64,000 bases of DNA from the NCBI GenBank assembly GCA_003024785.1, contig PUQB01000947.1, positions 1 through 64,000 on the forward strand, given 5' to 3'. Source of the stretch: Selaginella tamariscina. Lineage: Eukaryota; Streptophyta; Lycopodiopsida; Selaginellales; Selaginellaceae. A program made the position numbers and the translations under genes. Below are positions 15,520 to 56,164 of the stretch, one piece after another. How positions within the stretch are numbered: the first letter of the stretch is position 1; each line of letters opens with the position of its first letter. The notes beneath the pieces are model-generated. The model was given only the letters and a program-made list of their open reading frames with translations. It was not told where the DNA came from and did no database searches.

Positions 15520-17880
15520 AAGTCCGTAATTCTCCTATATTGCATTATGCGTAGGTCTGTTAAACACATTGTCCACCAGGTGCAACTTCAAAAACTTAAA
15601 CTCACATTGTCATATTCATGTGCTTGTAGTTTGTCATGGTGCCATCTACTGCCAACAACGAGTAACAAATACCCACGAACCCCTTATGCCCCTGGGTAAG
15701 GCTCCAAATGCTATCTGCTACTTGGAAACCATGTTGTACTTATATTACCAACATCTAACTGGGTGGAACGGATTAATTTATTGACACGTACACACGGTGT
15801 GCATGTACAGTTCATTTACACATACAGGGTCATGTACACACATACATATCTTGGAATTGCCTATCAGCAGTTTATATATATAAATAGACGTACCACTGGG
15901 AAGAAAAAAAGATTGAGGATCCAGATAAAACAACTATCACGGGAAAGTCTTCCACATCGTGCATAGAGAGTAACTCTACATGGAACCTATATTGATTTGC
16001 AATTCCTCCAAACTTTTTGGACACTTGGAAAATGATTCTTCACAGAATTCTTTTTCCCATAGAACTATGTGGTCTTTGAGTAAGTTTCGAAAGATTCTTC
16101 TGTGACTTTATCATTCACCACAGTCACGTCACCAAAGATATCTTAAATTCTATAGAAAACCCTTTATATACCCACACTTACAAAACCACAAAAACTTGTC
16201 AACCCTCTTTCTCTATATATACTCACGGTCACATTTTAAGTTCAAGCGTTATTAAGTTGAAGTTCTTTTCTACCACTCACCTCAAAATATAAGCGTCCAA
16301 AATGCTTCTGATCATATAAAGACTTCAACAGGTATTTCCAGCTATTTGTAGAAGCTTAATAAAGGTCTGTAAATTATGCATCAACCTTTAACCTCGATAA
16401 GCACATGAGACACTCAGATTTTGATTTGATTTCTTGACTCGATGTGGGGTTAGTCGTTGTGACCTCTGACAATATAATGGCATCTTTTTTCCACTTCTGT
16501 TAATAAATAACTTCATTACCATAGCAAAACAGTGACAAACCGTACATACCTTGGATTTTCGTTCATCATGAGACAGTTTGTTACTCAAACGTTTAGCTAT
16601 CGCTCATGATTTCATGCATGGAGGTGAAACTTCAATGTACTCGCCATTATCACCCACGATGGAGTATCTAACCGGGAATGCATTTGCGATAACTTGCATA
16701 TAAACATTGATATGAGAATGAAAGCATCAATTTTCAAACAGAACCAAATACCTTTTCGTCCCCAACAACAATGGAGATGAGACCTTCTCAACTATCGACC
16801 AGTTTTACTTCTCATTATAAACTTCGTTACAAACATGTTTAAAACAAATTTTTGATTTGAACAGTGCATGTGGTTGAAGATTTATTTTTTCCACTCACAT
16901 AAAGGGAGTAGTATAAAGTAACTATGTAAGTTACCCTAGTAAGTGTGGTATGTACGAAGGTTAACCATGAAATATTATTTAAATATATTTATAATATAAT
17001 TAATTTTATAATTAAGATAACGTTTAGGACAATCTAAATACGATGAAGGATCTGCCCTTTCATTATGTATATAAATCTTGAACTTAAATATGTGTATTTA
17101 TTATATGTTGTTTTGAGGCTGTAGTGTTCTAAAATATTTCATGATTAACTTTCATATGTCTTTTAGTTACTTTATATTTAGTAAGGTAATTTATGTATTT
17201 ACCATATTACATTACACCCATTATATAATTTCAATAATAAAAGAATACCTCATTAATCATTGTACAATTATTTATATATCGTTCGAGGAGTGGCGGCATT
17301 TCCTGAAAAGTGTTACATATTCTGTACAAGTTCTTACGGATGACAAGAACCTAGAACTTAAGTGAGCTTAAGTAAGGGAAAATGGATTCGTACTCACCCT
17401 TAAGTTGAGTAACCACTTACTTAACTTTGTTAAGCTTAACTTGACTTAAGCTTAACTTAGCTTAACTTGAAATTACAGCTTTAAGTATTTATAAAGATTT
17501 ATCGTTAAACTTTTAAATTTTAAATTATAACTATTTAATTTACATAAACAAAAGATATTTAACCGTTGATAATAAATTATATTGATTATATATCTTGGTT
17601 GCACACACGTAACTCCTCAAACAACTTTATTCGTGTTGAGTTCATATAGGCATTCTAAAAAACTAAGAAATGTACATTTGCATAAATAATTATATATACA
17701 TGTTATATGAGTATCTTTTAAAGAAACATAGTTTCATAAAAGTTAATAAAATATATTTTAAAATTTATTAAACCAAAAAGAGATTTTATCTTTAAATTAG
17801 AATTTCAAGATCACATAATATACAAATTAAAAACTTTTTGAAGTCTCGTTTACACAACAATAATACAGAAAAATATACTC
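15520..17880. other. Intergenic region
   Basis: No exon was recognised. 15900-16650 is of moderate GC and could hold promoter sequence for the minus-strand gene at 15516 or old repeat DNA. From 16850 it becomes AT-rich. An AAGCTTAACTT-type repeat lies at 17345-17475. Confidence 0.5.
17345..17475. repeat. Imperfect AAGCTTAACTT / ACTTAAG repeat cluster
   Basis: Variants of CTTAACTT and its complement AAGTTAAG recur about ten times in 130 bp, in both orientations, so the stretch can fold on itself. It lies just outside the left end of inverted-duplication arm A. Confidence 0.7.
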
Positions 17881-18213
17881 AGGCTCATTGCTTAATAATT
17901 GTGTAAAAAGTAGTCTAATAGTTTAATAATGAAATTTTGAAATGTATGTAGTTTTACATGTCATTGAAGTGCTTTTTTAAAAAAATACCGTTGTGAAATA
18001 AAAAACACTTCGTTTTGAAATGAGCTATACCACGAGGCATAAATTATATCTTATTAATGCTTTAGTAATTCCAAAATAAAAAATATAAATTGAACAATGA
18101 ACAAATTCTTAACTTTATTTTCAATAATAATGTTAAAACATATATTTCAAACATATTATATATTATATGTATATACCTGAGAATTGCACTCGGGTTAGGG
18201 CCATATAGGGTTT

Positions 18214-19937
18214 ATGCGAGAGCCAGCCAGAATGGATTCGCGTTCGAATGAGGAGATCTTCATGGCCTTATTTGCAATTGCAGGTATGGTGAAGGGACGT
18301 ACCAATGAGCTCTTGAAGCAGGCGGTAAGAGAATGCTTTGTATTAAAAGATTATCTTAGTGGCGATCTGCTAGGGATATTGAAGGCGGAGATATTGAAGG
18401 TGAGCGTGTGTCTTTTTCCTCTGAGAATTTTTCCTCTGAACGGGTTTGTTTCACAGGGCTCAAACAAAGCCGCCTCTGATTTGCTGTGCCTCTTGGAAGT
18501 CCTCAACTTGGTCAAGGATGAATCGCACATGGAAGCTAAGCAGCGGGCTATCAGAGCTGTTCAGGGATGGAACTGTGACTGTCTGACGTACAACCCATTG
18601 CAGCTGGCTGTGTATGATCTTATGTGTGAAGCTATCCTGAAATCGACGGTGGAGGTGGAAGGAAAGACTACTGTGTTTGGCTCCCTGGCGGATAAATCCG
18701 GGCAAGTTGTAGCTTTCCCCCAAAGTAATCGCGCGGTTCTCCTCCACAAGTGTGCTATGATCAACGTGATTAAGGTCTGCATCAATAATCCCAACATAGA
18801 TACAGCCGAGCTACTGGGTACGTAGTTTTTTAATTATGTTCTTTAACTATGTTGTTTAACTTACCGTTTCTTTATCTTGAAAGACATTGGTCTTTTTGGT
18901 GTTGCCGGTGTAAAAAGACTGGAAGATGAGATGCGGCAAGGTATATCTATCACGATAGCCCTTGAATTAATTCGGGTTGAGTACGAAGGTTTACCTCCTG
19001 CTAAGGTTCCGCCTCCTGTTTTGACGTATTATCCAGGTCAGGTTTTGATAATGTCTTTAAGAGTCTAGAATAATGTTTCAGGTTCTGATAATGTCTTTAA
19101 TAGTCTAGATTAACGAAGTTTTCTTCAACAGGTTCCTCTGAGAGTTCATCAGAGGAAGAGGAAGAGGAAAGCAGCAATTTAGATCAATTGCACATAGTGA
19201 AGAAGGGAAAGAAGTCGTTTTCAACTTTGGATCTTTTCAAGAAGATGGATAATATGGATTTGAAGCTAGATGGAATGCGCAAGAGTATGGATTTGAAACT
19301 AGATGGAATGCGCAAGAGTATGGATTTGAAGATGGATGCGATGGGAAAGAAGATTGACATGTTGCATGCAGATATGTCGGTTATAGCGGAGTCTACAGGG
19401 CGGAGTTTGCTGTTGCAGACCTTGCGATCACAATTTCCAGAGGTTACCATTACTTGCTATACATCCGCCAGAGAGTTTGACTATGACAGTTCAACCCCCG
19501 CTGCTACTGCTTTAGAAGCCTTAGGTAAGAGGTGTCTGAAATCTGTTACGAGAGAGATACCACAAACTGCAGAGATAGATTGCGTCTGCAAGATGACTAT
19601 ACCGTCTTTCGGCACAGACACTCCTACTTATTATTACTTCGGAGAGATCACCAGATCTAATGGGTTGTGCTCATGTGCTTCTGAGTATAGACATTCATCA
19701 TCCACCGGTGGCTTCTCACCTTCAACGACGTTTCTCTACAAGCTTGTACAGCTAGAACGAGGGATCCTTGCAGCTGATGCACAGGTTCTAGGGTGCGCCG
19801 TTATTTCACCGTCCTTCAGAGGGATGTCTGAAGATGGGAAATCTGCTCTTCTATCTGTTTGTCTCGGCCAATCTCCCGAATTGCGGAACCTCAACAGGAT
19901 GTATGAAAAGGGCCACGTGTTGCTTTTACCAAGTTGA
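18214..19937 (+). CDS. Gene X: uncharacterised 501-aa protein with acidic tract and 11-residue-repeat coiled coil
   Basis: Four exons (18214-18399, 18457-18817, 18884-19036, 19132-19937) give 1506 nt in one frame. Introns are 57, 66 and 95 nt, all GT-AG, and the first is a multiple of three without a stop. An alternative start is the Met at 18232. Residues 1-230 are mostly helical with no recognised domain. Exon 4 opens with a Ser/Glu-rich acidic tract (SSESSSEEEEEESS). Next comes an 11-residue repeat, KLDGMRKSMDL twice and a third degenerate copy, which suits a hendecad coiled coil. The last 180 residues look globular, with several Cys. No signal peptide or membrane segment is seen. I do not recognise the family. 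It is convergent with the PPR gene and has a broken second copy in arm B. Confidence 0.8.
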
Positions 19938-20029
19938 TCTACAGTGATCCAAGTGTTCATTGTATACATATATGAGAAAATTTACTATATACAACACTGA
20001 AACAATAAGTGATCGACGCACCTGCTGTT

Positions 20030-20130
20030 TTTTTATAAAAAACATTGACTGACTATAGCTCTGTTCAGATTGCAGTTGATAACAGTACAGATATTCTCAC
20101 TAAGGGTTGAAACAGTAGCATCTTCTAGAA
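20030..20130 (+). pseudogene. 3' end remnant of a mannose-binding lectin gene
   Basis: The segment matches the reverse complement of the end of the intact lectin gene around 34,600-34,660 (shared words include TCAGATTGCAGTTGATAACA and TATTCTCACTAAGG). Only the last part of the coding region and the 3' flank remain. It sits between gene X and the PPR gene. The same remnant lies in arm B, so the truncation came before the duplication. Confidence 0.7.
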
Positions 20131-20221
20131 TAAACTTGACTTATGTCAAGGTTGATACAAGTTTGAATCTCTACCGTCAGATTTACAAGTTTGAACCTCT
20201 TCTGTCCGATCCTCAATCTTC

Positions 20222-22737
20222 TTAGTTTGTGCATGGTGCTACTAACATGTTTGAGAGAGCTACATAAGGCCCGGAAGTACATTCTTCAAACCCGAAAACA
20301 CTCTCTGCAGCGGTTGCTCCAAGCTGGACATCCCTCTGTGTCTTACAGGAGCCGAGTAAAGACCCCCACGCCCCGACATCTGGCATAAACGGCATAGTCT
20401 CCAGCAGCTCCTTTGCTTCCTTGAGCCGTCCGGCACGACCGAACACGTCGACCATCCTGCAGAAGTGCTCCCTCCAGGGAGACAATCCGTGGTCGGCAAT
20501 CATGGAGACAAACTTTTCTTGTCCCTCGATCACCGATCCGATATGTGTGCAGGCCATGAGTATCCCAATGAACGTAGCCTCGTCTGGCTTAGAGCCTTCG
20601 CTGCAGAGAGTGTAGAAGTGATTAAGTGCCTCATAACCTCGTCCGGAACTCGCATTGCCCGTAATGATTGCATTCCACGACACAGTGTTTCTCAAGGGCA
20701 TCTCCACAAAGAACCTCTCAGCTTCGTCTAGCCGTCCGTTGTGTGCAAGCATGGAGACCATCGCAGTCCAAGTTATCACATCTCGCTCCTTCATTGCCCC
20801 GAACATCATCTTTGCTTCTTCAAGGCGTTTGTTGTGTCCATATCCCACGAGCATCGCGTTGTAGGACACAATGTTCTTGTGAGGTATTGCGTCAAAGACC
20901 TTCTTGGCCTCTTCAACACGCCCGGCCTGGGCGTAAGCAACAACCATTGTGTTCCAAGACACCAGAGTCCGCTCCCCGAGCCTGTCAAAGATCTCCTTGG
21001 CGGCCTCCAACATCTCCGCATTTGCATACGCCTCCATCATTGCGTTGCTTGCGACCACGTCCGGGTTTCGAATGCGATCAAAGAGCTCCTTGGCCTCCTG
21101 CAGATGCCCGTTCTGTGCATATGCAACAACCATGGATGTCATCGTCCCCAAGTCACGCACTGACATCCTGTCCAGCATCTCCCTCGCTAACTCCACTTCC
21201 CCGTTCTGACTATACGCCATGATCATCGCAGTATGTGATAGATCGTTCCTCTCCGGCATCAAGTTGTATATCTTCTTCGCGACCGTAAGGCGTCCGTTCG
21301 ACCCGTATGCGTTTATCATCGTAGTCCAGGAGACGAGGTCCTTCCCCGGGAGTCTCTCGAACAGCCCCTCAGCTTCTTCCAGGTGTCCGTTCTGGGCATA
21401 TATAGTAACGACCGTCGTGTAAGCGACTGTATCTTGCTCGGGCATACGTTCAAAAGCTTCCTTAGCCGAGTGGATATGCCCCGCTTGGGCAAACGCTGAC
21501 AACAACGTGTTCCACGATACGAGTTCCCTCCTCGGCATTTTCAAAAATATCTTCCTCGCTTGCTCGGTATATCCATTCTGTGCATACGCTGCAACCATCG
21601 AGTTCCATGATACTACACCTCTCTCCGGCATTCTTATGAAGGTCATCTCGGACTCTCCGATATGCCCTCTCTGGCCATACGCTGAGATAAGTGCGTTCCA
21701 CGACACATCGTCTCTCTTTGTTGCACTGTATATAGATATCTCACGTTAGTGTACGTATATAATATCTATACATACCTGTGGAACGTCTCTACAGCCTTGT
21801 TGAGATGCCCATTTCGGGCATATGCCGATAACATGGTGGTCCATATCATTGGGTCTTGCCTGGACATGTTCATAGAGAGGCCCTCGGCTCGGATGACATC
21901 CCCGTGGTCAATGTACATTTGAAGCATCACACTGTACGTAACTGCGTTGTGCTCCGGCATACTGGTGAACACCCCAACGGCGAGATCGAGACGCTCGTGT
22001 AACGAGTAAGTCTTGAGGATCAATGTACAGGAGACTATGTCTTGTTGGGGCGTCCTATCGAAGAACTCGTTGGCTGTTTCGAGATGCCCGACTTGGGCAT
22101 ATGCGGTTAGCATGGCGTTCCACGATATTTTATCTCTCTTGGGCGTATCTCTGAACACATTCTTCGCATCTGAAACTCTTCTGTGATCTGAGAATGCAGT
22201 GATCATCGCGTTCCATGAAACGACAGTGGATTCCGGTGTGTTCTCGAACATGTAACTGGCCTCACGGAGATGCCCATTCTGGGCATATGCAGTAATCATT
22301 GAATTCCAAGACGTAGAGCTCCACTGGGGCATCCTCTCGAACATCTCCTTTGCCTGTCGGATATGCCCGTGTTGGGCATATGCAGAGATGAGTGCGTTCC
22401 ATGAGACAACGTTCTGTTGCGGCATCGTATCGAAGATGTACCTGGCGTTGTGGACTTGCCCATTCTCCGCGTATGCCTGCATAAGGATTGTCCACGAGAA
22501 GAGATTTGGGTACGGAAGAGAATCGAACACGGATTGGGCCTCGCGTATAGAGCCGCATTTGCCGTACATTTGAACCAGGAGGTTGTGGAGGTATACATTG
22601 TTGTTGTGGTAAACGTGCGTGGAGATGTGTGCGTGGATGTGTCTGCCTTGTGAGAGGTCGTTCCTTATACAGCAGGAGCGGAGTGACGTGGCGAGTTCGT
22701 CTTGTTGTAGCTTCAGTAATACCCTCTGTAATGACAT
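20222..22737 (-). CDS. PPR protein, about 20 S-type repeats, truncated E region
   Basis: Two exons (22737-21776 and 21725-20222) flank a 50-nt GT-AG intron. They total 2466 nt and encode 821 residues. After a short N-terminal region (about 90 residues) come about 19 consecutive 31-residue repeats of the VVSWNALISAYAQNG type, then one longer L-like repeat (KPDEATFIGILMAC) and an E1-like region. The protein stops in what should be the E2 region (YVALSNMLVAPCTN), with no DYW domain. Such proteins bind organellar RNA in plastids or mitochondria, and E-class members act in C-to-U editing with a separate deaminase. Targeting is not obvious from the N-terminus. The gene is divergent from P4H across about 1 kb. 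The arm B copy and a third copy at 34 kb are broken, so this is the only intact version here. Confidence 0.93.
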
Positions 22738-23677
22738 GGGACGTACATGTTCGTGTGTTTTCTTATGTATTGTAACCTCGTTAGTGATTATATATATATA
22801 ATATAATATTTATTTAGATTTTAAAATGTAAATAATTCAATTAAAACGAAAAGATTTTTTCTTAATTAAGAAGTAAACATAAAATATTCTTATTGTTTTG
22901 CTATATATAATTAATTATTTAATATTGAACTCCAAAACACAACTAATTAAACATATTATCGCAACATAATGTTGCTTATTTATAATTTAATAATACTCAA
23001 TAAACTTTATTATATTTCTTTCAAAAATTTATATATATTTTAGTTATTATAATTTTAAAAATTGAAATATAATATTTTTTTAAATTGAATTTAAAAACAT
23101 TTCCCAGATTCTGCAAGAATATGCAAATCTCTTTATTTTAAACTATGATAAATTTTTAAAATGCAAATATTTTAAATAATGTTAAATAACTAAAGATTAA
23201 ACAAATTTATTATAATATAAAGTCTATATTTAATTAAAACACATTTTAAATTATAAATATTACACTAATAAATATATATATATATTGTTAAAAAAAATGC
23301 ATACGCTGAGTTAATTCTTTTTAACAAAATAAGTCAAAGATAGTATATTATATTTATTAGATAATGTTAGACCAACTTAACCTTATTTAAGAATGTCAAG
23401 GCCGCCGTCCACGTGGAAGCATCTGGTAAGCCTGGAAATTCCCGAGGGGAAATCACTCTGTGTGCAGGGGTTTTCCTTGTTCAATTTGAACCCTTCAATC
23501 ATATAGATCTAATTATTCCAGGTACGTGTGTATGTGTATGTAGATATATGTGCACATATATGGATCATTAAAATGCTTTATTTTTTTTATTATTTATATT
23601 TTCTATTCATTTCCGTCAAAAATGTGATGTTATGGGGAATACACAATCAAGTGGAGCCCCAAGTATTGATTATGTCA

Positions 23678-23711
<34 letters not shown>

Positions 23712-23790
23712 ATATACCCACATATGATTATAATGCTTTTTTTTTTAATTGATTAAAATATGTGATTTTATGAGTTTTCAGTGAGATCAT
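22738..23790. promoter_or_regulatory. Divergent promoter region between PPR and P4H, with a likely P4H 5'UTR exon
   Basis: The first 650 bp are AT-rich. A GC-balanced island at about 23,395-23,521 ends in CCAG at GTACGTG, and an acceptor TTTTCAG lies near 23,780, eleven bases before the P4H start. This fits a non-coding first exon and a leader intron of about 260 nt containing a TA run. In arm B most of the interval is deleted. Confidence 0.5.
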
Positions 23791-23895
23791 ATGGTGGAAA
23801 TGTATACAATTAAGGGCAATGTAATGAAGCCCAAAGGATCAAGGTATCTCTACACTTTGTTAACTATTCTTACAGCGGCTATGGGCTTTGGTAAG

Positions 23896-23981
<86 letters not shown>

Positions 23982-25695
23982 TATATCTCTTTGTGTGTGA
24001 AGTTCTATAGAGATATGTATATATGTTTGCCATTTCTGGGCATTTGCTGAAAACTTAGCTGATTTATTAAATTATTTATTTGACTTTTTTTCTTTGATAG
24101 CTGCTTTTTCCCAGTTGTTGTTCCTTAGGCGAATTGAAGACACCAACGGTAAGTATATTCATGTATACGTATTATACACGTATATATACACTTATACAGC
24201 ATGACGACACACACACACACACACACATATAGACACATTTATTTACAGAACATTTTACATGGCACAATGATGAGGAAGCTCGGATTCTTCGTTTAGGATT
24301 TGTAAGTTTGTTTTGCTATATATCCATGTGCATATACGAATAATATGTTAAACCTTAATTACAGGTAAAGCCAGAGATTATTAGCTGGTCACCTAGGATT
24401 TTACTTCTGCACAAGTTCTTAAGCCCGGAGGCATGTATCAACAGCTCCATACATACACATAGTACATATAAATCAACTTAATACCCTCTTATATATTACA
24501 CACACATATACAACTTAATATGTATCATGTTTATGTATGTATGTGATATATGTTTTGCAGGAATGTGACTACTTGATGGCAATTGCGGGCCACGATTGCA
24601 GAAATCAACAGTAGTTGATACGAACACAGGCAAGGCATGTGTGAACAAATATATATCTGTTAAGTTAAGCTAGAAACTATATTAAAGAATATTTTAACAG
24701 GGAATTGAAAGCAAGGTTCGCACTAGTACTGGAATGTTTCTAAACAACGAGGACCGTAAGTCTCCCCTCATTCAGGTGTGTGTGTGTGTGTGTTGTTTAC
24801 ACATGTACATATATAATATGCAAACATAACATTGACGTGATATAAGGTAATTTAATACAAATGCATGCAAACATAATACTGACGTGAAGTGTTTTAATAT
24901 ATAAGGCTATTGAGAAGAGAATAGCAATGTTTACCATGATTCCTACCGAGAATGGAGAGCTGCTTCAAGTATTGAGGTGATAATTTCCTTCAAATAATAT
25001 GTATACCTCAATAATATTTACGAATATTGTCTTAATAATATAATAACAGTTGTGGATATTCTACAGGTATGAACCTAATCAATACTACAAACCTCATCAC
25101 GACTATTTCTCAGACGAGGTAACTGCACGCGCTTGCGTGTGCGTGTGATATATTGTGTGTGTGTGTGTGTGTGTGAATATATACATAAGACAGAAGCAAA
25201 CTTATATATATAACTTTGTACTTGTAGTACAATATTAAACGAGGAGGTCAACGTGTGGCAACAGTGCTTATGTCCTCACAGATGTAGAGGAAGGAGGAGA
25301 AACTATATTTCCGTCGGTCAGCAAATTATTATTACTAAAATCATTAGTGAATTAGTAATTATACTTAATTAATAAGTTAATGTTATTTAAGGTTGGAGAT
25401 AGTGAGTGTGAATGTGGTGGTGAGCTCGGAAAGGAGTATGTGTGAAACCGAGAAAGGGTGACGCTGTCTTGTTCTGGAGCGCTGTAAGTACACGCACACA
25501 CACACACACACATCACTATATATATATTTAATACGTTAATATATTATTAGTTTACTAATAATAAATACATAATTATATCTTTTACAGAATTTGCATGGGA
25601 ACGTGGATTCTAATAGTTTACATGGGAGTTGCGCAGTGGTTAAGGGAGAGAAATGGTCTGCAACTAAATGGTTAAGACAATTGCCATTTAACTAA
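23791..25695 (+). pseudogene. Prolyl 4-hydroxylase (P4H) copy A, eleven exons, three frame breaks
   Basis: The start (MVEMYTIKGNVMKPKGSRYL) is followed by a membrane anchor (LYTLLTILTAAMGF), as in plant type II Golgi/ER P4Hs. Later exons give HFTWHNDEEARILRLGFVKP, ISWSPRILLLHKFLSPEECD, KSTVVDTNTGK, KVRTSTGMFLNNEDRKSP and YEPNQYYKPHHDYFSDE (iron-binding His-x-Asp). They end with SLHGSCAVVKGEKWSATKW, which holds the second iron His and the 2-oxoglutarate Lys. The enzyme hydroxylates proline in hydroxyproline-rich wall proteins. Exon 5 (near 24,590), exon 9 (near 25,272) and exon 10 (near 25,430) each change frame by one base. Two introns use GC-AG ends. All active-site residues survive. It is convergent with ALDH, with 149 bp between stops. 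Confidence 0.85.
23899..23976. repeat. TA-GA compound microsatellite in P4H intron 1
   Basis: A TA run passes directly into more than twenty GA units just after the exon 1 donor. The arm B copy is much shorter, so the repeat has changed length since duplication. Confidence 0.95.
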
Positions 25696-25844
25696 AGCGG
25701 TAAGTTTCACACAATGTGAAACTAGTGTGAAAGTTAGTTTGACACTTTCATTCAACACTCCAAAATTTTGTAAACTAACATAATAATTCTATATGGTTTT
25801 ACTTCTGATTTAATGCTTATTAATGAGTTTAAGTAACTAAATAG

Positions 25845-25977
25845 TTAATTACGTAAAGGCTTGTGAATATGAAAGCCTTTGGGTTGTACAAAGGCCCTAA
25901 GCCCATCAATCCCGAGTGTTGAACCCATGCCTGAATTCTTTCTACCAGACCTGTTGAAATATGTGTATTATGTATGC

Positions 25978-26010
<33 letters not shown>

Positions 26011-26768
26011 GTGTGTATTGGAGTTACCATGGCAATCGTGGGGAAACGCGGTCACAGCAATTCCAATAACCAGTGCCAACATCTAGTTCTGCAAAAATAA
26101 TTTATAAAATTAATAATATAAATGATATTATTATTTATTTAATAATATCAAATATAGCTACCATTAAGGATAACTTCTGCATCTTCAAAATGCTTACTGA
26201 AGACACTCGCTGTTAAACCATATTCACTATCTTTCATTAAATTGATGGCCTCGTTGTCATCTCCTACGCACTAATTATGTACAAAATAGATAATTAACAA
26301 ACTAATTAATTAACTAAATAGTAATATATGATAGTTACCTGTATACCAACTACTGGACCAAAGGTTTCATTCCGCATTATGCACATTTGATGGCTTACAT
26401 CAGTTAAAATCTGTATACCATATATTATATAAGGTGTGTGTGTGTCTCTCTCACACACATACACGCACGCACATACACACACTTACAGTAGGGGGAACAA
26501 AATGGCCAACTTTGTGAGCCTTGGTGTTTTTAGTATCTCCACCAACATGAACTTGAGCACCTTTTTCCATGGCTTCGGCAAGCTGTAAAATTAATAATAT
26601 TAATATATATAAATTATTAATTCCAGAATATTACTAATAAATTATATATAGTTATATAGAAAATTAAAAAATACCTGCCGTCCAATCCGGTCGACTTGCT
26701 GCTTTGTGCATAGAGGTCCAATATACGTCTCCTCCAACATAGGATTTCCAATCTGTATAACATATCAC

Positions 26769-26812
<44 letters not shown>

Positions 26813-27650
26813 TCACACACACAGAGCGTATGTAGCATACTTTGTAAGAACGTATTATCTTCTTCATAGCCTCCACAAAAGATACGAAAACATTCTTATG
26901 CACATATATTCTCTCCACTGAGCAGCAGCTCTAAGAAATATTAAGTTAATACTTAAAATATGAAATAACATCTTAAGTACCTGACCAGAGTTGTAAAATG
27001 CTCCGTCAGCAACTGTAGTAGCCGCAGCTAGAATATTTGGCACATCATCTCGAATATACGTAGCATCTTTACCGCCAAGCTCCAACTGTAGCTGAAATAA
27101 ACTTGAATTATTAGTATATTTTATATTATTATTTATTTTTGTTTTAATAATTCAAATACAAATCAATGTTTTAATTAACTAGCTATTTAATTAAATATAG
27201 TTATTTAATATTACCTTTATAAGGTTGGGAGCAGCTCTTTTAATAATTTCTATACCATTAATATAAGAGCCAGTAAAAAATAATCCATTAATGCCTTTTG
27301 ATCCTGCTATATTTGAACCAGTTTCTGGGCCTCCAGTTGATATAGCAAATACATTCTCAGGAATACCTGACTATTAATAAAGTAAACAAAAAAATTAATA
27401 ATCATTAATATCGTTATTTTAAGTTAATATAAAAATTTATTAGAGGTTTACCAAATGGAGGATATTCGTAATCTCATGACCTGTAAGGTTGGCATATTCG
27501 CTCGGTTTGTATAGAACACAATTCCCAGTTAAAAGAGCTGGTGCAAATATATTACTTGAAAGGAAATACGGATAATTCCACGCAGATATATTTGCCACCT
27601 GTAAGAAAAAGAATTGAAATTTAAATATACACTAATAACGTATGTATATA

Positions 27651-27711
<61 letters not shown>

Positions 27712-30352: not shown

Positions 30353-30390
<38 letters not shown>

Positions 30391-44109: not shown

Positions 44110-44110
44110 C

Positions 44111-44173
<63 letters not shown>

Positions 44174-44190
44174 TGTGAGAGAGAGAGATA
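44110..44190. repeat. GT-GA compound microsatellite
   Basis: A GT run followed by GA runs lies next to the 3' end of the GT90 gene. Confidence 0.95.
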
Positions 44191-44223
44191 CACAATACAT
44201 TTAATTCTTATCATGAGAATAGC

Positions 44224-45611
44224 TTAAGAATAAAACAAATTTGCACACTTAGTTGTTGTGTCAAGCATTGCTATGTGCAACGGGCGGGCAATGCAATGAA
44301 CAGCGTCTTTACATATCAGTTCAGCTAATTCTGGTACCTCGACTTTAAATTTTTGAAGTTTAGCATATTCCTGCAACAGTTTCAACATGTATCTGTAGAC
44401 GTTATCCATTCTTAAGTCACGCTTAACAAACTCCTGAGCCTCAGCAGCAACAGCTTTTGCTTCATTTGGATATAAATTGCCCCATTCGATTGTCCTTTGA
44501 ATATCCCCACATGTCGGAACCACGGCTGATTGAAAAATGATGTTTTCCAGAAACCAAGCCTCTTGAGAAGAAGTCGTAATAATCAGAAGCAATCGATAGC
44601 ACAGCAGACCCACAAGACATTATATATTTGCGACTAACAGACCAAGAGTAACCTTCAATATAAATTTTGTACCTGTAGTTGCATGTTCTTCAAGTTTAGA
44701 ATTTGCAAAATGGTTTTGCCCTTCAGCAAGCCAGTCTGACCATAAATGTATGCACCAATCTGCGTGTTATTACACTTGAGTAGCTCGTTCGAATGGAAGC
44801 AACATGCAGGTTCCCTTTCCATTGTGCATATGGGTCCTTAAGTTCCCATTCGGTTTGTTGTGCATTAGCATTTAACGTCTCTTCCCAAGGTGGAATCTGA
44901 ATTTCAGGCCAACCCCAAAATGACCAATCCGGAAATGGAATGTCAAAGTGCTTGTTGGTGCTATCGTATCCGAACAGCGTGGTGGAACACGACCATGGAA
45001 GCGTTCCTTATCATTCTAGGCATGTCTTGACAGTTGAAGAAAAATTCAACATTTGGAACTTGGTCTGGATATTTTTCGAGCAACTCCAACAACCCCCAAA
45101 TGGTGAACATCATCCTACTTTGGAAACAGCGATAGTAAAGCTCGATGTACAGCTTACCCTTGTAAATGATAGCTCTAAAAGCTGCATTCTTCCTAGACTC
45201 TTGGAGAATGTCTGGAGATCCCTATGTCCCTCCAAGGAGATAAATCTTCCTCAATCCACTTGAAATAACCGGGATCTGTGGTTGCATTGGAAAGGTGAAA
45301 AGTTGATCTTTTGCCCCCCTCGTTCTCTTGACCTGTTCCACATGAGTCAATGCATCCTAGCACATGTGGTACTCTACTAATCCTAGACCACAGCGTGGGA
45401 CGGCTCATTTTTGCCACGGAGTGGCAGCCATGTTGTCCCCTGCCACTGTTGGATGCAACATTCCTATACTGAAAAGTAAAGTGCAAACCAACAAGACCAC
45501 CAAGCCGATGATTTTTAAACTCTCTCCAAAGCTTTTAACCCGTGGAAACAATCCAATGTTTCTTTCTATTACGTCGTTCCTGGAACCCGTGGAAATCCAT
45601 TGTGGAATCAA
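44224..45611 (-). pseudogene. GT90 / CAP10-type O-glucosyltransferase (DUF821), disrupted
   Basis: Minus-strand pieces in order match the family. There is an N-terminal membrane anchor (LKIIGLVVLLVCTLLFSIGM), then YFKWIEEDLSPWRDIGISR, then AAFRAIIYKGKLYIELYYR and MMFTIWGLLELLEKYPDQVP. Next come the diagnostic DIPFPDWSFWGWPEI with IPPWEE, DPYAQWKGN, and the tail IEWGNLYPNEAKAVAAEAQE with VYRYMLKLLQEYAKLQKFKV. Members are Golgi or ER glycosyltransferases related to Rumi and plant wall or glycoprotein enzymes. The frame changes at least four times (near 45,420, 45,200, 44,950 and 44,640-44,800) and no clean introns explain this, so it is probably a pseudogene. Assembly error could account for some of the changes. 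Confidence 0.85.
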
Positions 45612-45900
45612 AATCCCTAATAATTTAAGCTACAATTGCATTATGATGTAACCTTGCCTTCTGTGCAAGACTCTCTTATATCGAAGCGCCATGGATTGCT
45701 CCTCGCTGCACAGTGTGTACTGTAAACCCTATATCCGGAAGAACCCTTTAATATAAAACCTAACCCTAACCTAAACTAAGCGTCTTCACCCATATAAGAA
45801 AATACAAAATGTGGTCTTCCATCATTTGTATTCTCCGGTGTTAGAGTTTGTGAATTAAACTCTGTGCTACGAGAGAGAGAGAGAGAGTGTGTGTTTTATG
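45612..45900. other. GT90 upstream region
   Basis: Moderate GC. It contains a telomere-like AACCTAACCCTAACCTAAAC (45,758-45,777) and a short GA run. It could be the GT90 promoter. Homology to arm A begins right after it. Confidence 0.4.
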
Positions 45901-46519
45901 TTCGTAAACATTGTATATATGTGTGTACATGTGTGTGCTCAGTTGATTATATATATGAAAAATGAATATATTTATGTATATATGTATATATTTATGCACA
46001 CACAGGAAGCTTGAATATCTATACGATGGAAGAAAGTATTGGAAACAAACACATATAGAACAACGGAAGGTAAATTAAATAAGATTTAATTTTACACTTG
46101 AAATCTTTTCAGACAACACTCATGCGTTTTACTGATATGCTCTCTTGGAGGAAGGTATGACATGTATATGTATGTGTGTAAGTGTATAGTTATACACTTA
46201 TACACACACACACACACGTTTTATTACAATACACGTGTGTATATGTATGAATAGGTGTATACTATAGAATACTATGTTTATATGGCAGGCTGCGCTGACA
46301 AAAACATTGACTTCGGAAACAGGAAAACCATAACACAAGCCACGAGTGAGATTACGGCAACTATTGATCGGATAAAGTATTTTGTAAATAATTGTGATAA
46401 GGTAATTAACATAAATAAATACAGGTACTGGAAAGAATTACAGTTTTCGAAAGCTCTAGTATTAAGGAGAAAGGTGTATGAACCCCTTGGCATAGTAAGT
46501 TTTATATAAATATATATAA

Positions 46520-46522
46520 TGC

Positions 46523-46600
<78 letters not shown>
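46520..46600. repeat. GT-GA compound microsatellite in ALDH B intron
   Basis: GT units followed by GA units, corresponding to the CT-CA tract at 27,656-27,707 in arm A. The arm B tract is longer. Confidence 0.95.
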
Positions 46601-46603
<3 letters not shown>

Positions 46604-47296
46604 TATATACATACGTTATTAGTGTATATTTAAATTTCAATTCTTTTTCTTACAGGTGGCAAATATATCTGCGTGGAATTATCCGTATTTCCTTTCAACT
46701 AATATATTTGCACCAGCTCTTTTAACTGGGAATTGTGTTCTATACAAACCGAGCGAATATGTCAACCTTATAGGTCATGAGATTACGAATATCCTCCATT
46801 TGGTAAACTTTAATAAATTTTTATATTAACTTAAAATAACGAATATTATTATTAGTATTGTTTACTTTATTAATAGTTAGGTATTCCTGAGATGTATTGC
46901 TATATCAACTGGAGGCCCAGAAACTGGTTCATTAATGGATTATTTTTTACTGGCTCTATATTAATGGATAGAAATTATTAAAAGAGCTGCTCCCAACCTT
47001 ATAAAGGTAATATTAAATAACTATATTTAATTAAATAGTTAGTTAATTATCTAAAACATTGATTTATTATTTGAATTAGTAAAACAAAAAATAAATTATA
47101 ATAAAGTTATACTAATAATTCAAGTTTATTTCAGCTACAGTTGGAGCTTGGCGGTAAAGATGCTACGAATATTCGAGATGATGTGCCAATATTCTAGCTG
47201 CGGCTACTACAGTTGCTGACGGAGCATTTTGCCAGGTACTTAATATATTATTTCATATTTTAAGTTAATATATTATTTCATACAAAGTATGCTACG

Positions 47297-47360
<64 letters not shown>

Positions 47361-47659
47361 ATACAGATTGGAAATCCTATGTTGGAGGAGACGTATATTG
47401 GACCTCTATGCACAAAGCAGCAAGTTGACCGGATTGGACGGCAGGTATTTTTAATTTTCTATATAACTATATATAATTTATTAGTAATATATTCTGGAAT
47501 TAATAATATTAATTTTACAGCTTGCCGAGGCCATGGAGAAAGGTGCTCAAGTTCATGTTGGTGGAGATACTAAAAGCGCCAAGGCTGGCCATTTTGTTCC
47601 CCCTACTGTAAGTGTGTGTATGTGTGTGAGTGCGTGCGTGCGTGTCTGTGTGTGAGAGA

Positions 47660-48036
47660 GAGGAGAGACACTCACAGCAATTCCAATAACCAGTGCCAAC
47701 ATCTAGTTCTGCAAAATAATTCATAAAATTAATATATATGATATTATATATTTATTTAATATTATCAATATATAGCTACCATTAAGGATAACTTCTGCAT
47801 CTTCAAAATGCTTACTGAAACACTCGCTGTTAAACCATATTCACTATCTTTCATTAAAACGCACTAATTATGTACAAAATAGATAATTAACAAACTAATT
47901 AATTAACTAAATAGTAATATATAATAGTTACTTGTATACCAACTACTGGACCAAAGGTTTCATTTCACATTATGCACATTTGATGGCTTCCATCAGTTAA
48001 AATCTGTATACCATATATTATATAAGGTGTGTGTCG
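47660..48036. repeat. Micro-inversion inside arm B
   Basis: Here arm B runs in the same direction as arm A (26,053-26,430), although the sequence on both sides is reverse-complemented. CAGCAATTCCAATAACCAGT and CATATATTATATAAGG mark the two ends. Breakpoints fall at GT/GA microsatellites and near GGAAACG. Confidence 0.9.
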
Positions 48037-48358
48037 TTTCCGCCATGGTAACTCCAACACACACACACACACATATGCATACATAATACACATATATCAA
48101 CAGGTCTGGTAGAAAGAATTCAGGCATGGGTTCAACACTCGGGATTGATGGGCTTAGGGCCTTTGTACAACTTTCATATTCACAAGCCTTTACTTAAACT
48201 CATTAATAAGAATTAAATCAGAAGTAAAACCATATAGTATGTTTAAGCATTGAATATTATACCAATATATACACAATTGTACTACATTATATCGAGTGTT
48301 GAATGAAAGTGTCAAACTAGCTTTCACACTAGTTTCACATTGTGTGAAACTTACCTCT

Positions 48359-50160
48359 TTAGTTAAATGGCAATTGTCTTAACCATTTAGTTGCAGACCA
48401 TTTCTCTCCCTTCACCACTGCGCAACTCCCATGTAAACTATTAGAATCCACGTTCCCATGCAAATTCTGTAAAAGATATAATTATGTATTTATTATTAGT
48501 ATACTAATAATATATTAATAATATAGTGATGTGTGTGTGTACACAGTGTCACCCTTTCTCGGTTTCACACATACTCCTTTCCGAAGCTCACCACCACATT
48601 CACACTCACTATCTCCAACCTTAATTAACATTAACTTATTAATTAAGTATAATTGCACTAATTAGTAATTAATAATTTGCTGACTGACGGACATATAGTT
48701 TCTCCTCCTTCCTCTACATCTGTGAGGATAAGCACTGTTGCCACACGTTGGCCTCCTCGTTTAATATTGTACTACAAGTACAAAGTTATATATATAAATT
48801 TCTTATGTATATATTCACACACACACACATATCACACGCACACGCACGCACGCGCGTGCAGTTACCTCGTCTAAGAAATAGTCGTGATGAGGTTTGTAGT
48901 ATTGATTAGGTTCATACCTGTAGAATATCCACAACTGTTATTATATTATTAAGACAATATTCGTAAATATTATTGACGGGTATACATATTATTTGAAGGA
49001 AATTATCCCCTCAATACTTGAAGCAGCTCTCCATTCTCGGTATGAATCATGGTAAACATTGCTATTCTCTTCTCAATAGCCTTATATATTAAAACACTTC
49101 ACGTCAGTATTACGTTTGCATATAACATGTGTGTGCATGCATGTGTTTGTATTAAATTGCCTTATATCACGTCAATGTTATGTTTGCATATTATATATGT
49201 ACATGTGTACACCACACACACACACACACACCTGAATGAGGGGAGACTTATGGTCCTCGTTGTTTAGAAACATTCCAGTACTAGTGCGAACCTTGCTTTC
49301 AATTCCCTGTTAAAATATTTTAACTTAACAGATATATATTTGTCCACACATGCCTTGCCTGTGTTCGTATCAACTACTGTTGATTTCTGCAATCCCAGCC
49401 CGCAATTGCCATCAAGTAGTCACATTCCTGCAAAACATATATCACATACAACATAAACATGATACATATTAAGTTGTATATGTGTGTGTAATATATAATA
49501 GGGTATTAAGTTGATTTATAAGTACTATGTGTATGTATGGAGCTGTTGATACATGCCTCCGGGCTTAAGAACTTGTGCAGAAGTAAAATCCTAGGTGACC
49601 AGCTAAGAACCTCTGGCTTTACCTGTAATTAAGGTTTAACATATTATTCGTATATGCACATGGATATATAGCAAAACAAACTTACAAATCCTAAACAAAG
49701 AATCCGAGCTTCCTCATGTAAAATGTTCTGTAAATAGATGTGTCTATACGTGTGTGTGTGTGTGTGTCGTCATGCTGTATAAGTGTATAATACATATGCA
49801 TATGCATACATACCGTTGGTGTCTTCAATTCGCATAAGGAACAACAACTGGGAAAAAGCAGCTATCAAAGAAAAAAAGTCAAAAAATATTTACTAAATAA
49901 ATAATTTAATAAATCATCCAATAAGGATATAGTTAATAAAACCGCTAAGTTTTCAGCAAATGCCCAGAAATGGCAAACATATATACATGTAACTATAGAA
50001 CTTCACACAAGATATATAAATGTGTGTGTGTCTATATATATATATATATATGAGCTTACCAAAGCCCATAGCCGCTGTAAAGAATAGTTAACAAAGTGTA
50101 GAGATACCTTGATCCTTTGGGCTTCATTACATTGCCCTTAATTGTATACATTTCCACCAT
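48359..50160 (-). pseudogene. Prolyl 4-hydroxylase copy B, broken
   Basis: The same eleven-exon layout as copy A, with the start codon at 50,160 and TAA at 48,361. The HHDYF and final LHGSCAVV-type exons are present. Exon 3 has lost 11 bases (WHNDEEA region). Exon 5 has the same one-base shift as copy A. Exons 9 and 10 are in frame here (LILTDVEEGGETI, ECGGELRKGVCVKPRKGD), unlike copy A, but exon 10 has lost its LFWSA end and donor. Both GC donors are conserved. Confidence 0.88.
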
Positions 50161-50344
50161 ATGATCTCACTGAAAACTCATAAAATCACATATTTTAATC
50201 AATTAAAAAAAAAAGCATTATAATCATCATATACGTATGTGGGTATATACACACATACATATATATATAATATATACATATATTGACAATCAATACTTCG
50301 GGCTCCACTTAGGCTAATACGGCCCCCTCTTATTCCAATACTAT

Positions 50345-52498
50345 TTAGGCACTCCGCTCCTGCTGTATAAGGAACGACCTCTCACAAGGCAGACACATCC
50401 ACGCACACATCTCCACGCACGTTTACCACAAGAACAATGTATACCTCCACAGCCTCCTGGTTTAAATGTATGGCAAATGCGGCTCTATACGCGAGGCCCA
50501 ATCTGTGTTCCATTCTCTTCCGCACCCAAATTTCTTCTCGTGGACAATCCTCATGCAGGCATACGCGGAGAATAAGCAAGTTCACAACGCCAGGTACATC
50601 TTCGATACGATGCCGCAACAGAACGTTGTCTCATGGAACGCACTCATCTCTGCATACGACCAACACGGGCATATCCAACAGGCAAAGGAGATGTTCGAGA
50701 GGGTGCCCCAGTGGAGCTCTACGTCTTGGAATTCAATGATTACTGCATATGCCCAGAAAGGGCATCTCCGTGAGGCCAGTTACATGTTCGAGAACGCACC
50801 GGAATCTACTGTCGTTTCATGGAACGCGATGAGCACTGCATTTTCGGATCACAGAAGAGTCTCAAATGCAAAGAATGTGTTCGATTCATCGGCCAAGAGA
50901 GATAAAATCTCGTGGAACGCTATGCTAACCGCATATGCCCAATTCGGGCATCTCGAAAGAGCCAACGAGTTCTTCGATAGGACGGCCCAACAAGACATAG
51001 TCTCCTGTACTCGTTACACGAGCGTCTCGATCTCGCCGTTGGGCTGTTCACCGGTATGCCGGAGCACAACGCAGTTACGTACAGTGTGATGCTTCAGATG
51101 TACATTGATCACGGGGATGTCATCCGAGCCGAGGGTCTCTCTATGAACATGTCCAGGCAAGATCCGATGATATGGACCACCATGTTATCGGCATATGCAC
51201 GAAATGGGCATCTCAACAAGTGTATGTATAGATATGTATATACGTACACTAACGTGAGATATCTGCAACAAAGAGAGACGATGTGTCGTGGAACGCACTT
51301 ATCTCAGCGTATGCCCAAAGAGGGCATATCGGAGAGACCGAGCAAGCGAGGAAGATATTTCTGGAAATGCCGAGGAGGGAACTCGTATCGTGGAACACGT
51401 TGTTTTCAGCGTTTGCCCAAGCGGGGCATATCCACTCGGCTAAGGAAGCTTTTGAACGTATGGCCGAGCAAGATACAGTCGCTTACACGACGGTGGTCAC
51501 TATATATGCCCAGAACGGGCACCTCTAAGAAGCTGAAGGGCTGTTCGAGAGACTCCCGGGGAAGGACCTCGTTTCCTGGACTACGATGATAAACGCATAC
51601 GGGTCGAACTGACGCCTTACGGCCGCAAAGAAAATATACAACTTGATGCCGGAGAAGAACGATCTATCACGCGTATAGTCAGAACGGGGAAGTGGATGCT
51701 GGACAGGATGTCATGGTTGTTGCATATGCACAGAATGGACATCTGCAGGAGGCCAAGGAGCTCTTTGATCGCATTCACGTACTCTCATGTCTTGGAACAC
51801 AATGGTTGTTGCTTACGCCCAGGCCGGGCGTGTTGAAGAGGTCAAGAGGGTCTTTGACGCGATACCTGTGTCCTACAACGTGGGATATGGACACAACAAA
51901 CGCCTTGAAGAAGTGAAGATGATGTCGGGGCAATGAAGGAGCGAGATGTGATAACTTGGACTGCGATGGTCTCCTCATGCTTGCACACAACGGACGGCTA
52001 GATGAAGCTGAGAAGTTCTTTGTGGAGATGCCCTTGAGAAACACTGTGTCGTGGAACGCAATCATTGCGGGCAATGCGAGTTCTGGACGGGGTTATGAGG
52101 CACTTAATCACTTATACACTCTTTGCAGCGAAGGCTCTAAGCCAGACGAGGCTACGTTCATTGGGATACTCATGGCCTGCACACATATCGGATCGGTGAT
52201 CGAGGGACAAGAAAAGTTTGTCTCCATGATTGCCGACCACGGATTGTCTCCCTGGAGGGAGCACTTCTGCAGGATGGTCGACGTCTTCGGTCGTGCCGGG
52301 CGGCTCAAGGAAGCAAAGGAGCTGCTGGAGACTATGCCGTTTATGCCGGATGTCAGGGCGTGGCGGTCTTACTCGGGTCCTGTAAGACACAGAGGGATGT
52401 CCAGCTTGGAGCAACCGCTGCAGAGTGTTTTTGGGTTTAGGGTAGCTCCTCCTTATGTAGCTCTCTCAAACATGTCAGTAGCACCGTGCACAAACTAA
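50345..52498 (+). pseudogene. PPR gene copy B, broken
   Basis: It starts inside the N-terminal region (after LRSCCIRNDL), so the first codons and promoter are gone. An in-frame stop replaces Gln just before MYGKCGSIREAQ. Long open stretches follow (IFDTMPQQNVVSWNALISAY and so on) with a frame break near 51,010. The short intron near 51,222-51,270 is recognisable, then further small deletions and stops occur at 51,350-51,960. The end (YVALSNMSVAPCTN) matches copy A. Confidence 0.92.
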
Positions 52499-52584: not shown

Positions 52585-52685
52585 AAGTTTATTCTATGCA
52601 TTCTCAACCTTAATGAGAATATCTGTACTGTTATCAACTGCAATCTGAACAGATCCGGTGTTACTAACCACACCGGAGCATATAT
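52585..52685 (-). pseudogene. Lectin 3' remnant, arm B
   Basis: GCATTCTCAACCTTA, TGTTATCAACTGCAATCTGA and ACAGATCCGGTGTTACTA match the end of the intact lectin gene at 34,600-34,680. The remnant stops at GGAGCATATATA and passes directly into sequence 3' of gene X, as in arm A. Confidence 0.75.
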
Positions 52686-52937
52686 AGTCAGTCAATGTTT
52701 TTAAAAAACAGCAGGTGCGTTAATCACTTATTGTTTCAGTGTTGTATATAGTAAATTTTTTATATATGTATGAACACTTGGAGCAACCCTTCTGTTTAAT
52801 ACTTTAATAAAAAAAACAGAAATCCATTACAAGTTGACTACTTAAACAACTCTAGCTCCTCATGTAGTTAAAAGTTATTTTTTGTCCTTGTTGAAGCTGT
52901 GTATTAAATCCTTTAGATCCTAGGCACTTCAACAGTA

Positions 52938-52955
52938 CCTCCCTCCCTCCCTCCC

Positions 52956-53022
<67 letters not shown>
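52938..53022. repeat. CT-TA compound microsatellite
   Basis: CCCT and CT units pass into a TA run. It has no counterpart at the matching place in arm A, so it lies in sequence inserted into arm B. Confidence 0.9.
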
Positions 53023-53084
53023 GTCTATGTGTGTACAATAGGCTTGTGGAAGTTACGATCGATCAACAACTTCCTGCCACTCGT

Positions 53085-53550
53085 GAGGTTTAAAGGATAT
53101 GGAGTCTTGTAAAAAGGCTTGATTCTTCGTAGTGAGCAACAACATATTGAGAAAAGTAAGGCCTTTGAGAAACAAGTTAAACTTCTTCAAAAACAGTGCT
53201 ACAAAAAGGAATCAGAGGTGTGTGTGTTATTGCAATGCAAGTAATGTACGAGTCCTAGACGTACTCAATTGTACATATTGATTGTTAATAATTTGAAAAT
53301 AAATATTTGTATGTATAGTGACTACATATGATATTTTATTGTATGACATATAAGTATATATAATACTGTTTTGTACAGAAATGTTATGTGTAAACCAGGC
53401 AGAGGAGCTTAAGGCTCTTAAGGGCATGTTTCCACCTACATTAAGAGAGGTTGTATAATTAAGAGACATGCAAGAAGCAGGAAAGGAGCTGCGTGATGCA
53501 CGTACTGTGGTTTGGTTGCAGGAGCAAGTTAAATTGTTAACTCATTGAAA
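53085..53550 (+). pseudogene. Exon fragments of a coiled-coil protein
   Basis: LILRSEQQHIEKSKAFEKQV then KLLQKQCYKKESE ends at a GTGTGT donor near 53,218. A second piece after CCAG near 53,402 reads AEELKALKGMFPPTLRE and ends at GTTGTA. A third reads DMQEAGKELRDARTVVWLQE then QVKLLTH and a stop. Heptad-like spacing suggests a coiled coil. The family is unknown. The fragment lies inside arm B, without an arm A counterpart. Confidence 0.5.
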
Positions 53551-53559
53551 AGGTTTCTC

Positions 53560-54490
53560 TCTCTTTAGATTATCAAACTAGCTGTGATGATTAACAGGTG
53601 AAAGAATAAATATAGGAGCAAGTGGTACCGTTATTAAAATCCCATTATGTTAATAATAATATATAATCATATTTAGTTATTAATTCTTTTATATATATAC
53701 ATTTCTATTTGTTAGCTGTAATGCCTACGAGAGAGAGAACAAAAGATAGCAAAAGTGTATATATATATATATAATATATATATATATATCAACGTCAACG
53801 TCTTGTTGACGAAAAACGTGGTGACCAATCCGACAGACAGTTCAGCATGTACCCTATAGGGTTTATTTAACCCCATGTCATAAATTCTTTAAGTTAAGGT
53901 TTGGACGAGTTTATTAGTTAAATTCAACCAGTATATTTTGATAGTCCACTTTACAAAATAAGAAAATAAAGAAGGTTTTTATTATATATATTAAGTAAAA
54001 TATATAATAAAGATTTTAAATTCATAATTAAATTAATTATTATTTTTTATTAATGTAAATTTTAAATTATGTTATTAATACAGAACCTGTCGTTGTGCCA
54101 CTTCAACTTCCAAACTATACGTCCCATCTTCCCTGTGTAATGTTAAGGCATATCTATAGCGTTCTCTTTTATTTCAAATTACGAGTAATATTTATAATTA
54201 AGCGGGTCACATTGGTGTCTTTATTTAACTATAGACCTGGTGTTATTAAAAGACATGTACTAGTTAACTCGTTGTATCTTCTTATTTCTCACTGCATTAA
54301 TATCTTTTGCATATTATTCATATGTAGCGTACGCTAACACGTATACATATGTTACTGTTATGTCTATGTACAAAGACCGAAGAATCCTAGATTCTAAATG
54401 GATGATTATCCAACGTCTGACGTATATTACTACTGTTTTCTCAAGCTTTCATCTTTTTATTTAAACTTGATTATTAAAACAAAGAAAACA
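53560..54490. other. AT-rich insertion in arm B
   Basis: This stretch has no counterpart between gene X and the lectin remnant in arm A. It is AT-rich, with a TA run at 53,758-53,790. No coding sequence was recognised. Confidence 0.5.
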
Positions 54491-54494
54491 AGAG

Positions 54495-55980
54495 TAGATC
54501 AACTTGGTAGAAGCAAAACGTGGCCCTCCTGTTGAGGTTCCGCAATTCGGGAGATTGGCCGAGACAAACAGATAGAAGAGCAGATTTCCCATCTTCAGAC
54601 ATCCCTCTGAAGGACGGTGAAATAACGTAGAACCTGTGCATCAGCTGCTGCAAGGATCCCTCGTTCTAGCTGTACAAGTTTATAGAGAAACTTCGTTGAA
54701 GGTGAGAAGCCTCCGGTGGATGATGAATGTCTATACTCAGAAGCACATGAGCACAACCCTTGATCTGGCGATCTCTCCGAAATAATAATAAGTAGGAGTG
54801 TCTGTGCCGAAAGACGGTATAGTCATCTTGCAGACGCAATCTATCTCTGCAGTTTGTGGTATCTCTCTTGTCCGCCACTGCATCTCCTGGCCAGTTTCCT
54901 GTCTAACAGACTTCAGACACCTCTTACCTAAGGCTTCTAAAGCAGTAGCAGCGGGGATTGAACTGTCATAATCAAACTCTCTGGCAGATGTATAAGAAGT
55001 AATGGTAACCTCTGGAAATTGTATCGCAAGGTCTGCAACAGCAAACTCCGCCCTGTAGACTCTGCTATACCGACGTATCTGCATGCAACATGTCAATCTT
55101 CCTGTGCATCGCATCCATACTCTTGTGCATTCCATCTACCTTCAAATCCATACTCTTGAGCATTCATCTATCCTCAAATCCATACGCATTCCATCCATCT
55201 TCAAATCCATACTATCCATCTTCTTGAAAAGATCCGAAGTTGAAAACGACTTCTTTCCCTTCTTCACTATGTGCAATTGATCTAAATTGCTGCTCTCCTC
55301 TTCCTCTGATGAACTCTCAGAGGAACCTGTTGAAGAAAACTTCGTTAATCTAGAGACATTATCAGAACCTGAACATTATTCTAGACTCTTAAAGACATTA
55401 TCAAAACCTGACCTGGATAATACGTCAAAACAGGAGGCGGAACCTTAGGAGGAGGTAAACCTTCGTACTCAACCCGAATTAATTCAAGGGCTATCGTGAT
55501 AGATATACCTTGCCGCATCTCATCTTCCAGTCTTTTTACACCGGCAACACCAAAAAGACCAATGTCTTTCAAGATAAAAAAATAAAAAAGACAAACGGTA
55601 ACTTAAACAACATAGTTAAAGAACATAATCAAAAAACTACGTACCCAGTAGCTATGTTGGGATTATTGATGCAGACCTTAATCACGTTGATCATAGCACA
55701 CTTGTGGAGGAGAACCGCGATTAAAGCTACAACTTGCCCGGATTTATCCGCTAGGAGTCAAACACAGTAGTCTTTCCTTCCACCTCCACCGTCGATTTCA
55801 GGATAGCTTCACACGTAAGATCATACACAGCCAGCTGCAATGGGTTGTACGTCAGACAGTCACAGTTCCATCCCTGAACAGCTCTGATAGCCCGCTGCTT
55901 AGCTTCCATGTGCGATTCCTCGTTGAGAAGTTGAGGACTTCAAGAGACACAGCAAATCAGAAGCGGCTTTGTTTGAGCAC
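54495..55980 (-). pseudogene. Gene X copy B, broken
   Basis: Exons correspond to copy A: IGLFGVAGVKRLEDEMRQGI and GLPPPKVPPPVLTYYPG are intact. The 11-residue coiled-coil repeats are scrambled by deletions. The globular C-terminal part reads FPEVTITSYTSAREFDYDSS and then carries 33 extra in-frame bases relative to copy A (near 54,870-54,905). Frame breaks occur in the first exons (near 55,760 and 55,930) and after YYYFGEIARS. Confidence 0.88.
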
Positions 55981-56164
55981 TGTGAAATAAATCCATTCAG
56001 AAGAAAATCCCCATAAGAAAAAGACATGCTGCTGCAATGTTTAGCCACGCATGTGAAATAAATCCCCATAAGAAAAATACATATATTTTAAATTTTCATT
56101 ATTAAACTATTAGACAACTTTCTACACAATTATTAAGCAAATGAATCTCAAGTTCATGTCATTC

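Follow-up and report, generated by a model that had tools for sequence, protein, structure and literature searches.

Within 64,000 bp of the Selaginella tamariscina genome, five genes recur in mirrored order and strand on either side of a long spacer. The locus raises the question of whether these are the arms of a true genomic inverted duplication, and whether such arms still pair, exchange sequence, flip the DNA between them or feed small RNAs. The window is this whole stretch, positions 1 to 64,000 of contig C1334 (69,370 bp), and the genome searched with it comprised 300.7 Mb in 1,391 contigs. The locus is a real, old and partly decayed inverted segmental duplication, which is a known kind of event. 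We consider a DNA-level inverted segmental duplication, followed by pseudogenization of one arm (arm B), to be very probable.

Layout of the two arms

Self-comparison of the window bore out the original prediction of an inverted duplication with two arms of more than 10 kb around a 17.5-kb spacer, and alignment of arm A against the reverse complement of arm B placed the predicted coordinates correctly within 20 bp.

17,888-28,345, plus strand: arm A, probable source copy (self-comparison, ends aligned)
28,346-45,906, no strand: spacer of 17,561 bp, in the same orientation on contig C705
45,907-56,140, minus strand: arm B, inverted and decayed copy (self-comparison)

The predicted order of gene X, a lectin remnant, a PPR gene, P4H and ALDH was recovered in mirror image as collinear inverted blocks, with gapped identities between 84 and 91% depending on the block.

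A 17,888-17,955 with B 56,140-56,073, inverted: 91%
A 18,409-19,942 with B 56,026-54,494, inverted: 88%
A 19,945-22,685 with B 52,785-50,350, inverted, in three pieces: 84-89%
A 23,649-25,997 with B 50,310-48,057, inverted: 85%
A 26,445-26,850 with B 47,661-47,277, inverted: 84%
A 26,932-28,345 with B 47,282-45,907, inverted: 86%

The five longest blocks have an E-value of 0 and chance is therefore excluded. Together with a micro-inversion described below, the blocks span approximately 8.8 of the 10.46 kb of arm A and 8.4 of the 10.23 kb of arm B when rows are summed. Over the eight blocks longer than 250 bp, substitution divergence is 4.2% (339 of 8,143 sites), with 118 gap openings. Introns and intergenic DNA match between the arms as well as the genes, so that retrocopies, for which intron loss and single genes would be expected, are ruled out, and the description of the arms as copies of a genomic segment stands.

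Gene content of the arms

The genes and remnants of the two arms are as follows.

18,199-19,934, plus strand: gene X in arm A, stop-to-stop frames of 208 and 277 aa
54,494-56,026, minus strand: X in arm B, with 195 bp of the first exon missing and more indels, on both contigs
20,057-20,104, plus strand: lectin remnant in arm A, 16 C-terminal residues recognised (E 0.018)
52,597-52,665, minus strand: lectin remnant in arm B, 23 C-terminal residues recognised
20,225-22,737, minus strand: PPR gene in arm A, an 821-aa open frame once one short putative intron is removed
50,349-52,495, plus strand: PPR remnant in arm B (alignment to A)
23,785-25,695, plus strand: prolyl-4-hydroxylase-like (P4H) pseudogene in arm A, with 2OG-Fe(II) oxygenase domain
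48,057-50,310, minus strand: P4H block of arm B, paired with A 23,649-25,997
25,845-28,425, minus strand: aldehyde dehydrogenase (ALDH) gene in arm A, joined exons, N-terminal exon beyond the duplicated part
45,907-48,057, plus strand: ALDH remnant in arm B, with a gap of 80 bp at exon 8 and with exons 11 and 12 turned round, on both contigs

A Pfam search recognised PPR repeats and two aldehyde dehydrogenase pieces and, after the P4H exons were joined, showed the 2OG-Fe(II) oxygenase domain in part of that gene. Gene X matched no Pfam family above its cut-off; it has a 75% relative on contigs C948 and C935. In both arms the lectin consists of its C-terminal end only. Searches with Rfam at gathering thresholds and for tRNAs each returned no match. 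With its exons joined, the ALDH of arm A matches plant betaine/aminoaldehyde dehydrogenases in the PDB (best 230.7 bits, from query residue 64 onward). A first ALDH exon guessed at approximately 28,531-28,640 was rejected along with the guessed frame of the next exon; the best PDB match starts after both, and a paralogue on contig C47 supplied a better reading of the second exon.

On both contigs, arm B has broken versions of X, PPR and ALDH. The PPR remnant has lost 97, 84, 55, 28, 19 and 14 bp on both, in addition to other deletions. Many single-base indels separate C705 from C1334 in coding parts, and the ALDH N-terminal exon on C1334 is out of frame relative to the C47 paralogue and differs by one base from C705. 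We therefore make no claim of working genes in arm A.

For P4H, one frame defect is common to all four arm copies and missing from the copies on contigs C1060 and C900, which are themselves truncated or altered. This suggests that P4H was probably already dead by the time the segment was copied.

A second contig carries the same duplication

Contig C705 (247,566 bp) is collinear in reverse with the window, from 161,388 down to 98,284, with unaligned stretches of at most about 0.7 kb. Arm A, the spacer, a third partial copy of the PPR/lectin part and arm B are arranged on it as in the window. Substitutions between C1334 and C705 amount to 1.9% over the aligned parts of the window and to about 1% within each arm. 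An alignment of the four arm copies gave identities of 98.95% between the two A copies, 99.07% between the two B copies and, counting all columns, non-homologous ones included, 89.9-91.0% between A and B. Sites at which two copies stand against two group by arm in 680 cases, a number that includes non-homologous columns in the micro-inversion and its flanks, by contig in 1 case and crossed in none. The duplication is therefore older than the split of the contigs, and there has been no visible exchange between the arms since.

The comparison with C705 bears on two explanations. The duplication would be an assembly artefact if two diverged haplotypes or paralogous loci had been joined head to head on one contig, and the placement of the window on a contig of 69,370 bp, in an assembly of 1,391 contigs that contains a second copy of the region, would fit such an error. 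Against this, C705 has the same arms and spacer collinearly, with differences of its own, and each arm has a close counterpart, so that a false join at identical places would be needed in both contigs. Since the duplication is present on two contigs that were assembled separately, we regard an artefact as highly improbable.

The second explanation is an active palindrome, with pairing or sequence exchange between its arms or with a spacer that flips. Exact runs between the arms do remain (127 reach 21 bp or more and 34 reach 50 bp or more, the longest being 161 bp). However, the spacer has the same orientation on both of the two contigs, large arm-specific indels are retained on both, and the gene-conversion signature, a change common to the arms of one contig, occurs at only 1 site against 680 grouped by arm, with no crossed sites. 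An active palindrome is accordingly the sort of explanation that we would give almost no weight. Of the original interpretation, the genomic segment thus holds, whereas flipping of the spacer and recombination between the arms are not supported by the comparison with C705 and the site patterns.

We take C1334 and C705 to be probable haplotypes of one region. Two other places that were compared also pair (C948 with C935 at 94.1%, C705 with C505 at 95.4%). A search for Gcd10p (PF04189) yielded three contigs with 84-90% mutual identity and no near-identical pair, and a uniform two-haplotype assembly is therefore not borne out. Passages of the S. lepidophylla haplotype genome report describe collinear haplotype contigs with 98.2% similarity, and duplicate genes that are local or segmental, without whole-genome duplication (PMC5750206). 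The likeness of our locus to that genome lies in the collinear haplotype contigs and in the local or segmental duplicates. If the rate quoted there, 1.3e-8 per base per year, is borrowed for this locus, the duplication would be about 1.6 million years old, and the contigs would have separated about 0.4 (from the arms) to 0.7 (from the whole window) million years ago.

Spacer and neighborhood

The third partial copy lies in the spacer.

34,019-34,687, plus strand: third partial copy of the PPR/lectin part (self-comparison)

It is 80-86% identical to the arms, and the PPR/lectin end also has a 91% relative at C568:80,199-80,769. A B_lectin open frame (Pfam) at 34,597-35,061 overlaps the third copy, the two spanning 34,019-35,061. 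The spacer further holds a second PPR open frame of 507 aa (35,734-37,254) and, toward the inner end of arm B, pieces of a Glycosyltransferase 90 gene (44,227-45,007). Elsewhere in the window, a 165-bp sequence occurs twice as an exact tandem repeat (1,339-1,670).

In 80 kb of C705 there are 15 internal repeat pairs of at least 250 bp, 10 of them inverted and 8 of these from the arms; 60 kb of C568 (5,000 N) contain 5 internal repeat pairs, none inverted. A further inverted pair of 75.5% identity (L009-L010) lies near the arms on C705:90,286-101,599. AT-rich intergenic BLAST matches at 56-62% were taken as composition, not homology.

Stretches unshared or rearranged between the arms

Four stretches interrupt the collinearity of the arms.

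26,052-26,441, minus strand: piece of arm A with ALDH exons 11, 12 and part of 13, inverted in B (self-comparison; likewise on C705)
47,672-48,034, minus strand: micro-inversion in arm B, with TG/CA repeats near its ends (self-comparison, ends aligned)
52,786-54,493, no strand: 1.7 kb only in arm B, a fragment of locally repeated sequence and a dispersed repeat
22,686-23,648, no strand: approximately 0.9 kb of arm A, nearly absent from B (self-comparison)

The first two stretches match each other over about 0.4 kb at 90% and lie on the same strand in both arms; the piece has therefore been re-inverted in one arm. ALDH exons 11-12 fail to align between A and B because they are inverted in B, and this micro-inversion is present on both C1334 and C705. 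With 40 of 331 candidates scored, the fragment in the 1.7-kb stretch has at least 4 further copies on C705:25-88 kb and at least 4 on C505, in both orientations, and the second component is a repeat scattered across many contigs. The sole match of the 0.9-kb stretch in arm B is 64 bp at 77%. Its portion at 23,317-23,648 resembles the DNA upstream of the P4H copies on C1060 (74-88%) and C900 (88-89%), which suggests that at least this portion has probably been lost from B.

Decay of arm B and direction of copying

Arm B is decayed on both contigs, with long deletions and the flipped piece that holds two ALDH exons. Length differences common to both contigs were counted in the homologous blocks, excluding the unshared stretches of 1.7 and 0.9 kb. 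Of these events, 59 leave B the shorter arm, by 712 bases in all, and 21 leave A the shorter, by 230 bases.

The direction of copying is indicated by the ALDH N-terminal exon, which lies at about 28,359-28,425, just outside arm A. Around 28,369-28,423 it is 80% identical over 56 bp to the corresponding place upstream of the C47 paralogue. The window and the compared stretch of C705 hold one occurrence each, next to arm A in both cases, and none was found next to arm B. This distribution points to arm A as probably the source and to arm B as an incomplete copy of it, although the absence of the exon beside B could reflect a later deletion.

The P4H substitutions go against a simple picture of a conserved arm A. 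With the C1060 copy as outgroup, in an alignment that repeats may disturb, the derived state of the 41 fixed differences falls in A at 29 and in B at 12; deletions number 5 in A and 11 in B, and insertions 6 in A and none in B. Arm A is therefore not simply the better-kept arm.

Ends of the arms and mechanism of duplication

Plants possess gene-capturing transposons, and one of Helitron or Pack-MULE type could have carried the segment. A copia-type gag match, below the Pfam cut-off, lies just outside arm B (57,619-58,035). The ends were compared by exact words with random placements of the same span, the exact ends being uncertain. At the estimated ends of B there is one exact 10-bp inverted word, and 214 of 2,000 random placements had one; no exact inverted word was found at the estimated ends of A. 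A shared flanking word of at least 6 bp was found at neither arm and in 495 of 2,000 random placements. Terminal inverted and flanking words are thus at chance level, which argues only against the terminal-repeat type; Helitrons have neither terminal inverted repeats nor a target-site duplication. Overall, carriage by a transposon appears extremely unlikely.

The preferred reading remains a DNA-level inverted segmental duplication. A nuclear segment of about 10 kb would have been copied at the DNA level and placed, inverted, about 17.5 kb away. It would have contained X, the 3' remnant of the lectin, PPR, the P4H pseudogene and ALDH without its N-terminal part. The event may have been a local break-repair or template-switch duplication, a mechanism that we infer by exclusion, no transposon ends having been found. 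Arm B would since have been an unselected set of pseudogenes, decaying largely by deletion, and the inverted arrangement itself would require no function.

Potential for RNA silencing

An inverted pair of gene sets could also act as an RNA-silencing locus, in which arm B or read-through would supply small RNAs that target arm A genes. Arms A and B share 3,023 exact 21-mers in the alignment, and the micro-inversion puts antisense of ALDH exons 11-13 on the strand of the presumptive transcript of the ALDH remnant in B. Passages of a study in rice report pseudogenes, including two inverted neighboring pairs, with antisense small RNAs (PMC2708354). However, the anatomy of the locus is such that RNAs from both copies of a gene would be same-sense, the micro-inversion in B being the one local exception; a duplex between A and B therefore requires either that one arm be transcribed in antisense or that a transcript run across the 17.5-kb spacer. 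Judged on anatomy, silencing by this route seems very improbable.

The micro-inversion could in principle have made the dead ALDH of arm B a built-in source of antisense that yields trans-acting siRNA. The predicted transcript of this remnant would include 363 nt complementary to the ALDH RNA of arm A before splicing. About 200 nt of these lie opposite exons 11, 12 and part of 13, where exact matches extend over 32, 39 and 35 nt. We consider such a source very unlikely.

Inverted duplication as an origin of plant MIRNA genes requires both arms in a single transcript, which is unlikely here at this scale. The likeness to the published model (PMC3237417) is in the inverted copies of protein genes or pseudogenes. 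The rice pairs resemble the present locus in being inverted neighboring paralogues that are dead or partly dead, and the same passages of PMC2708354 describe two of them as able to form RNA hairpins, with small RNAs mapped. Their arms are about 154-185 bp long and 1.0-1.3 kb apart, whereas those described here are 10 kb long and 17.5 kb apart. A literature search for inverted segmental duplication in plant genomes found one paper, on T-DNA lines.

Conclusions

At this locus an inverted duplication is cleanly supported, and placed in time order, by two copies of the region that were assembled separately. The same case gives the likely direction of copying and the deletion-rich decay of one arm, and its importance is modest. 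For this region of the S. tamariscina genome, an active hairpin or a flipping spacer is less to be expected in view of this result.
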